NCBI GenBank assembly: GCA_019747075.1
Contig: JAIERF010000009.1
Span: forward strand, 1 to 64,000
Direction: 5' to 3'
Source: Pseudomonadaceae bacterium
GTDB lineage: Bacteria > Pseudomonadota > Gammaproteobacteria > Pseudomonadales > Pseudomonadaceae
Length of the DNA stretch: 64,000 nucleotides
Both the position numbers and the translations under genes were made by a program. The notes beneath the pieces are model-generated. The model searched no databases and was not told the origin of the DNA. It saw only the letters and a program-made list of their open reading frames with translations. This document shows, piece by piece, positions 30,884-53,004 of this stretch; within the stretch, counting starts at the first letter, position 1, and every line of letters begins with the position of its first letter.

Positions 30884-32211
30884 AACCGTCCCGTGCGCTG
30901 CTCGCCCTCCTGGCCGCGCTGCTGAGCGCAGCCATTCTGCTCGGCGCCTTGCCGGCCCTGGGCCTGCCGCTGCCTGCGAGCCTGACGCCACTGTGGTGGG
31001 GCCTGCTGCTGACCCTGCTGCTGGTCGCCGGTTGCGATGCCCTGTGGCTGCACCGCCTGCCATCGCCACGCCTGCAACGCAGTCTGCCGGGCAACCTGCC
31101 GCTGGGACGCTGGAGCGACGTGCAGCTGCATATCGAGCACGATTACTCACAGGCCATGCATCTGGAGCTGTTCGATCACCTGCCGGCGGCCATGGCCTGC
31201 GAGCAGTTGCCCCTGCACATCGAGCTACAGCCGCAGCGTCACACCGAATGCAGCTACCGGGTGCGTCCGTTGCAACGCGGGCACTTCCACTTCCCCCGCT
31301 GCGAACTGCTGCTACCCAGCCCCCTGGGCCTGTGGTGCGGTCGGCGGCTACTCGAATTACCCGGCGAAACCCGCGTCTACCCCGACTTCGCCCGTCTGCA
31401 AGGCGGGCAGATGATGGCCGTCGATAACTGGCTCAGCCAGCTCGGCGTGCGCCAGCACCAACGCCGCGGCCTGGGTATGGAGTTTCACCAGCTGCGCGAT
31501 TTTCGCGATGGCGACACCCTGCGCCAAATCGACTGGAAAGCCACCGCGCGCAAGCGCACGCCGATTGCCCGCGAGTACCAGGACGAACGCGACCAGCAGA
31601 TTGTTTTCCTGCTCGATTGCGGCCGGCGCATGCGCAGCCAGGACGGCGAACTGGCGCACTTCGACCACGCCCTCAACGCCTGCCTGCTGCTCAGTTATGT
31701 GGCCCTGCGCCAGGGCGATGCCGTGGGCCTGGCGACCTTTGCCAGCGCGCAGCAACGCTTCCTCGCGCCGGTCAAAGGTCAGGCTCAGCTCAGTGCCCTG
31801 CTCAACAGCGTTTACGATTTGCAGAGCAGCCAGCAACCGGCGGACTACAGCGCCGCCATCAACCAGCTGCTGGCACGCCAGCGCCGCCGCGCCCTGGTGG
31901 TACTGGTGACCAACCTGCGCGATGAAGATGACGAAGAGCTGCTCGGTGCGCTCAAGCGCCTCGGGCGCCAGCACCGCGTCCTGCTGGTCAGCCTGCGCGA
32001 GGAGGTGCTGGACAGCCTGCGCCAGGCACCGGTGCAGGATTACGAATCGGCCTTGGCCTATTGCGGCAGCGTGGCCTACCTGAATGCCCGCGCCAGCCTG
32101 CACGAACGCCTGGCGGCCCACGGCGTGCCAGTGCTGGATGCCCGGCCAAGCGAACTGGGGCCGGAGTTGGTCGGCCAATATCTGGCCTGGAAGAAGGCTG
32201 GGGTGCTGTAA
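30880..32211 (+). CDS. DUF58 domain-containing protein (vWA-like)
   Basis: 'FHQLRDFRDGDTLRQIDWKATARKRTPIAREYQDERDQQIVFLLDCGRRM'. Confidence 0.93.
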   Translation: MKPSRALLALLAALLSAAILLGALPALGLPLPASLTPLWWGLLLTLLLVAGCDALWLHRLPSPRLQRSLPGNLPLGRWSDVQLHIEHDYSQAMHLELFDHLPAAMACEQLPLHIELQPQRHTECSYRVRPLQRGHFHFPRCELLLPSPLGLWCGRRLLELPGETRVYPDFARLQGGQMMAVDNWLSQLGVRQHQRRGLGMEFHQLRDFRDGDTLRQIDWKATARKRTPIAREYQDERDQQIVFLLDCGRRMRSQDGELAHFDHALNACLLLSYVALRQGDAVGLATFASAQQRFLAPVKGQAQLSALLNSVYDLQSSQQPADYSAAINQLLARQRRRALVVLVTNLRDEDDEELLGALKRLGRQHRVLLVSLREEVLDSLRQAPVQDYESALAYCGSVAYLNARASLHERLAAHGVPVLDARPSELGPELVGQYLAWKKAGVL

Positions 32212-32255
32212 CAAGTCGCAGAAAAGGGTCATGCGTAGATTAAGTACTGCGCACC

Positions 32256-32549
32256 TGGCCACTACCGGTTTCGCCTTTACGGCGAGTCACTTTCTCTTTG
32301 CTTGCGCGAAAGAGAAAGTAACCAAAGAGAAAGCGCACCCGGCATCCGGGTTTCGCTGCGCGAAACTCCCCTCGCTCCGGCACTGCTCCGAGGGTCGTCA
32401 CGGTGGGCCATCCCTGGCCCATCGTTCCTCGTTTGGCATCCATGCCAAACGCCCCTCTACACAGCACCTCCACTCGGCCTCCTGACGGGACCGGGGGACC
32501 GAGGCGCCTGCATAATTTGTGGGAGCGGTTTTAACCGCGAAGCTTTTAA
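32256..32549 (+). repeat. Multi-hairpin repeat element, copy A, ending in a REP-like hairpin
   Basis: Nearly identical by eye to the reverse complement of 52680..52972; contains at least seven consecutive inverted repeats. Confidence 0.92.
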
Positions 32550-32550
32550 G
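32518..32550. repeat. REP-like palindrome at the end of copy A
   Basis: tgtgggagcggttttaaccgcgaagcttttaa, similar to Pseudomonas REP (gtgggagcgggcttgcccgcgaa). Confidence 0.7.
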
Positions 32551-32620
32551 TCGTAGCCAGGCGCTAGGACAAATACTTCATATCAGTAAGTAGGCACATA
32601 ACCTAAAAGAACAGCCCGCC

Positions 32621-32980
32621 TCAGGCCGAAGCGGCGTGGGTGCGAAAGCTGAAGTAATAACGCAACGCGTCGATCATCTCGACAAACTCGCCGGGCGGCG
32701 CCACCAGGGCGAAGCCCGAGTCGAAGCTGCCGGGGGTGACGTCTTCGCGGCACCACTGGCAGGTGGCGAAGAAGTCGATGCAATGTACCTGGCCATCCTT
32801 GCCGGGGATTTTCAGGCGCATGTCAAAACGCGCATTGACCAGCATCGGCAGCTGGCTGATCAGCATCAGGCCGTCCACGGATACGTTGCCGATGTAGCCC
32901 ATCGGTTTGTCGGTGATGCGATTGAACACCTTCAGGTAATACGGCAACTGATGGCGCTCAATGCGGCGTTGAATGCGCAT
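32621..32980 (-). CDS. PilZ domain-containing protein
   Basis: 'RRIERHQLPYYLKVFNRITDKPMGYIGNVSVDGLMLIS' (R-x3-R and (D/N)xSxxG motifs). Confidence 0.9.
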   Translation of the reverse strand: MRIQRRIERHQLPYYLKVFNRITDKPMGYIGNVSVDGLMLISQLPMLVNARFDMRLKIPGKDGQVHCIDFFATCQWCREDVTPGSFDSGFALVAPPGEFVEMIDALRYYFSFRTHAASA

Positions 32981-52679: not shown

Positions 52680-52972
52680 TTAAAAGCTTCGCGGTCAAGA
52701 CCGCTCCCACGGATTTGCAGACGCCTCTGTCCCTGGTCCCGTCAGGAGGCCGAGTGCAGGTGCTGTGCAGAGGGGCATTTGGCCGGGATGCCAAATGAGG
52801 AACGATGGGCCATGGATGGCCCACCGTGACGACCCTCGGAGCAGTGCCGGAGCGAGGGAAGTTTCGCGCAGCGAAACCCGGATGCCGGGTGCGCTTTCTC
52901 TTTGGTTACTTTCTCTTTCGCGCAAGCAAAGAGAAAGTGACTCGGCGTAAAGCCGAAACCGGTAGTGGCCAA
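52680..52972 (-). repeat. Multi-hairpin repeat element, copy B (inverted relative to copy A)
   Basis: Reverse complement aligns with 32256..32549; REP-like hairpin gcggtcaagaccgc at 52691-52704. Confidence 0.92.
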
Positions 52973-53004
52973 GCGCGCAATACATAACTGATACAGCACC
53001 AAAA

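Follow-up and report, generated by a model that had tools for sequence, protein, structure and literature searches.

A dispersed transposon-like element in a Pseudomonadaceae genome with a conserved minus-strand RNA fold that may act as a decoy for RsmA/CsrA

The TwoAYGGAY RNA family (RF01731) was described by Weinberg et al. in 2010 (PMC2864571) and is the closest known relative of the element discussed here, with which it shares two neighbouring hairpins with AYGGAY-type loops inside an outer stem. Binding of this family to CsrA was proposed earlier through motif matching (PMC4333381); the CsrA hypothesis for TwoAYGGAY is already a published one. It is also known that CANGGANG is a confirmed Rsm motif, which RsmA, RsmE and RsmI bind in a P. 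putida transcript (PMC6849547). The titrating sRNAs CsrB, RsmX, RsmY and RsmZ have in common with the element several GGA motifs, two of which the element presents in CANGGANG hairpin loops. Such sRNAs are genes at one locus, each with a promoter and a terminator of its own, whereas the element is dispersed and repeated. In P. fluorescens, the repeats R200, R26 and R178 (320, 352 and 101 bp; Silby et al. 2009, PMC2718517) are, as described, similar in size and in copy number, and they too prefer to lie between convergent genes. Another related group is the ISL3 family of insertion sequences, whose terminal repeats and 8-bp duplications in A/T-tracts are shared by paired copies of the element in two genomes (G001 and G015); however, the element has no transposase gene, and the ends of the copy studied here are of another, degenerate type. 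In the literature searched, TwoAYGGAY RNA is not connected by any paper with intergenic repeats or with miniature elements of the ISL3 type. What is new here is that TwoAYGGAY is tied to mobile paired repeats and to one folded strand.

The copy under study (copy A) lies in a 64,000-nucleotide stretch of a Pseudomonadaceae bacterium, hereafter the window, between a DUF58 gene that ends at 32211 on the plus strand and a convergent PilZ gene (32621-32980, minus strand; Pfam match slightly below cut-off). The original prediction, made from the letters of the window, described an element of about 294 bp at 32256-32549, built as a string of consecutive hairpins. Its repeated nature holds, but its true extent is larger, about 32226-32603 (about 378 bp), as is common to the copies of the same genome. 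All eight inverted repeats listed were found where they had been placed. These are CGCC-TTTAC-GGCG (32272-32284), which forms with CTTTCTCTTT..AAAGAGAAAG(TAACCAAAGAGAAAG) the outer hairpins of 32272-32333 that recur in relatives; ACCCGG-CAT-CCGGGT (32337-32351); GTTTCGC-TGC-GCGAAAC (32350-32366); CCCTCG-N14-CGAGGG (32369-32394); TGGGCCA-TCCC-TGGCCCA (32404-32421); the stem at 32430-32451; and the hairpin TGTGGGAGCGG-TTTTAA-CCGCGAAG (32518-32542), which is common to several own-genome copies and which we take to be REP-like. They are not all separate, since the ACCCGG hairpin shares two bases with the GTTTCGC one. The CTTTCTCTTT arm (32290-32333) can pair with either of two AAAGAGAAAG segments that lie 15 bases from each other, an arrangement also present in relatives, and could be a switch. 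Degenerate terminal repeats delimit the element. Judged by eye, the left one, GGGTCATGCGTAGATTAAGTACTGC (32226-32250, plus strand), is similar to its counterparts in other own-genome copies and to the reverse complement of right ends such as GGCTATGTACCCGTTACGTGTTGC; the right one (32579-32603, minus strand; reverse complement GGTTATGTGCCTACTTACTG...) was recognised by comparing the own-genome copies. When these copies are placed in one orientation, their ends are imperfect, each like the reverse complement of the other (judged by eye).

Folded as RNA, 32256-32549 is more stable than 200 of 200 dinucleotide shuffles on either strand, with -141.3 kcal/mol (z -5.1) for the minus and -124.0 kcal/mol (z -3.9) for the plus strand. 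The stems of the predicted string are thus real; the conserved fold, however, is a multibranch structure of the minus strand and not a plain plus-strand string. It occupies a TwoAYGGAY-like core at 32365-32492 (minus strand), which shows covariation and scores 128.7 bits with R1, a covariance model of the conserved RNA unit. The 5' arm of its outer stem (32461-32468, minus strand) pairs with the covarying 3' arm (32379-32386, minus strand), giving eight pairs, seven of which have changed on both sides. Inside this stem are hairpin A (32430-32451, minus strand), with the loop CATGGATG (CANGGANG) at 32437-32444, and hairpin B (32404-32421, minus strand), with the loop CAGGGATG (CANGGANG) at 32409-32416. 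In alignment A1, made of 33 non-redundant units from relatives, the minus-strand consensus has 29 pairs, and 23 of them show changes on both sides. Compensatory cells number 173, as against 40 in shuffles, and by five measures of covariation none of 500 shuffles reaches the observed value of any, the shuffles being of a kind that does not preserve relatedness. The signal is lost when pairing partners are slid, a comparison that favours the consensus structure since it was derived from A1 itself; in a raw ranking of covariation with no structure as input, the structural pairs also come top. That the folded strand is the minus one is seen from the alignment fold energy (minus -46.7 versus plus -21.6 kcal/mol), from the wobble counts (G-U 79 versus A-C 11) and from the pairs predicted on both strands (22 versus 8 in favour of the minus strand). 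The minimum-energy fold of the window copy holds the same helices as the A1 consensus. Thus, the suggested selection on nucleic-acid structure is strongly supported by covariation and strand bias, and the RNA fold is assigned with high confidence.

As for the family to which this fold belongs, a search of the window against Rfam at gathering thresholds returned no match. In a permissive search, and only there, the minus strand of the window copy matched RF01731 with 40.8 bits over 32391-32456, which is 2.2 bits below the gathering cut-off of 43; the miRNA and lncRNA matches of the same search were set aside as chance. Sister loci do exceed the cut-off, with 13 matches in 11 loci. The core is a diverged RF01731 TwoAYGGAY. 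The original prediction is thus partly supported: the idea of an unassigned family does not fully hold, since an Rfam match, which was to refute it, is narrowly missed by the window copy. The choice of the folded strand, the pairing of copies, the terminal repeats and the loops with the RsmA/CsrA motif went beyond what that prediction contained. The loop of hairpin A, AUGGAU, fits AYGGAY, and that of hairpin B, AGGGAU, fits ANGGAN, its second position not being Y. The element differs from TwoAYGGAY in that its covarying outer stem is longer, its copies form outward-reading pairs and its ends are transposon-like, features of which no mention was found in the family literature consulted.

The loops also bear on a protein partner. 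The motif CANGGANG occurs 1.76 times per A1 unit on the minus strand, never on the plus strand and 0.09 times in shuffles; two loops carry it in 25 of 33 units and one in the other 8, and GGA motifs average 6.7 per unit. The A and GGA positions of the loops are conserved in 259 of 264 A1 cells (98%), while about one cell in four differs at the N positions. Such a combination of fixed and variable positions agrees with the motif of the protein, and base pairing by itself would not be expected to produce it. CsrA is encoded by all 20 of the other R1-positive genomes of the phylum sample, and R1 is found in none of the 19 CsrA-less genomes of the class. This co-occurrence has a p of 0.003, or 0.06 when Pseudomonadaceae are left out, both figures being uncorrected for phylogeny. 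CsrA was not found in the assembly to which the window belongs, whose completeness is 78%. From these sequence patterns it is proposed, with moderate confidence, that the RNA of the element would bind RsmA/CsrA.

The window's assembly contains 15 element matches in all. Copy B (52680-52987, minus strand) is flanked by a fumarase and a peroxiredoxin gene, again convergent, and folds on the plus strand (52735-52862). The DUF58/PilZ pair that flanks copy A is kept without the element in three relatives, in which the genes are about 147, 66 and 35 bp apart, as compared with 416 bp in the window where the element is present. At one of these three sites (L273, in G002), what looks like a REP pair sits where the window has the element. 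Copy A has no clean target duplication, while another own copy (L003) has one matching at 7 of 8 positions (ATAGTTAA/ACAGTTAA). No plasmid match was found. Beyond the assembly, DNA matches were obtained in 20 of the 39 genomes searched (the window's own included), all of the window's genus. The copies are often arranged as outward-reading inverted pairs, whose spacer measures about 95 bp in G001 and varies elsewhere. Such pairs recur in distant matches, the opposite arrangement being seen at two loci (L113 and L135).

Paired copies in G001 have outer ends GGTTCTTCGC..., and one of them (L039) is bordered by a perfect 8-bp target duplication, ATAAAAAA. Those of G015 end in GGTTGTTCGCGGAATTCC and GGTTCTTCACGGAATCCCGGG and lie inside a T-tract. 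The genuine ISL3-family elements of the genus, found by PF01610, have ends GGTTCTTCACGGAATCCCGGGAAACAC or GGTTCTTCGCGGAGTCTGGGG and A/T-tract or perfect 8-bp duplications. The match between these ends indicates that at least the G001 and G015 pairs are ISL3-type miniature elements. An ISL3 transposase (E<=1e-30) was not found in G000 (78% complete), G001 or G015. Weak, though above-cut-off, matches to PF01610 (DDE_Tnp_ISL3) at two loci of close relatives (L060 and L062) lie in ORFs that look desaturase-like by eye and are apparent false positives. Paired copies at L019, L104, L158 and L217 have a different end type, about GTNYATATCCGTTNCTGCGGT, to which no known transposase was assigned. With other subfamilies having other ends, the RNA unit looks like a module that is combined with different types of end. 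Two paired elements have other RNAs directly next to their right end, namely Group II intron matches (RF00029, RF01998) at L050 (2309-2380 and 3814-3898, minus strand) and the sRNA RgsA (RF00628) at L044 (2100-2281, minus strand). Dispersed copies, terminal inverted repeats in own-genome and related copies, ISL3-type ends in some pairs and an empty site in relatives together support, with high confidence, that the element is mobile.

R1 relatives occur in 21 of 299 genomes of the phylum and in 30 of 196 of the order, and none lies outside the window's class in the phylum sample of 299. A pattern scan re-scored by R1 adds Stutzerimonas, Stenotrophomonas, Luteimonas, Alteromonas and Marinobacter, along with a paired copy in a Ruminiclostridium MAG. 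Where R1 or the loop pattern served to find the sequences, the conservation of their loops follows in a circle from the search and does not count as independent evidence.

Rough ORF-based gene calls place the copies between 34 convergent, 39 tandem and 7 divergent gene pairs, that is, away from promoters. No promoter, divergent ones included, was recognised in the pair centres, which makes read-through from neighbouring genes the simplest source of the RNA. By the same rough calls, the folded strand of solo copies between tandem genes is not preferentially read through. The conserved RNA reads outward from the pair centre, and transcription from neighbouring genes would run into the element and yield the folded RNA. 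This RNA might then bind proteins of the RsmA/CsrA family, either titrating them or marking and stabilising the 3' end of the transcript, while an ISL3-type transposase presumably moved the element in trans. Where copies are paired, the two arms are predicted to pair with each other more stably than they fold locally, so that the RNA would be effective as a decoy only if it folded while being transcribed or came from a solo copy, of which the window copy is one. On balance, the element is probably, by a narrow margin over an even chance, a miniature transposable element of the non-autonomous kind, with an RNA that probably binds RsmA/CsrA, and it may thereby spread a decoy for these proteins.

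Other explanations have to be weighed against this. The element may be a selfish miniature with no RNA role in the host, its structure being inherited from masters and kept for transposition or replication alone. Dispersed copies with terminal repeats and degenerate ends would be expected of it, as would the lack of a recognised promoter; yet it is unlikely, given that compensatory changes are seen throughout the genus and are asymmetric between the strands, and that distant genomes have the same fold next to outer ends that are unrelated. Somewhat less likely still is a structured RNA selected for protection, processing or termination of mRNA 3' ends between convergent genes, with loops meant for another partner. 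The very stable hairpins and the avoidance of divergent gene pairs agree with such a role, but no canonical U-tract follows the hairpins, and stem stability alone leaves the invariant A/GGA with free N positions unexplained.

The fold might also act as single-stranded DNA, its fixed-loop hairpins being recognised by a protein linked to replication or transposition, in the way REP sequences are by RAYT transposases. The element is mobile-like, rich in hairpins and equipped with REP-like ones, and tolerance of G-T wobbles would yield the same strand bias as RNA. This is, nevertheless, distinctly improbable: the ends and duplications of the paired copies are of the ISL3 type (double-strand DDE) and not of the HUH type, and the loops match the motif of an RNA-binding protein, free positions included. 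Finally, an ORF of 133 aa covers much of the element and could suggest a protein-coding family of ...KVTKEKA... ORFs. The ORF at 32084-32485 (plus strand), which reads ...KVTKEKAHPASGFR, has no Pfam match, the substitutions track the base pairing of the opposite strand, and the indels of relatives are not multiples of three. The coding explanation, to which next to no probability is given, was rejected on account of the opposite-strand covariation and the missing Pfam match.

A broader proposal is put forward tentatively and is itself doubtful, namely that widespread miniature transposons of Gammaproteobacteria may spread an RsmA/CsrA decoy whose copy number tunes Gac/Rsm, and that TwoAYGGAY may largely consist of such mobile paired repeats. 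For an orphan Rfam family, the work supplies a strand, the complete fold with its covariation, a mobile context and a protein partner that can be tested, and the same gains apply to a class of Pseudomonas repeats that is common and mis-annotated. If RsmA binds the RNA, a regulator that governs biofilm, secretion and secondary metabolism would receive an unrecognised input from dozens of mobile copies in each genome.
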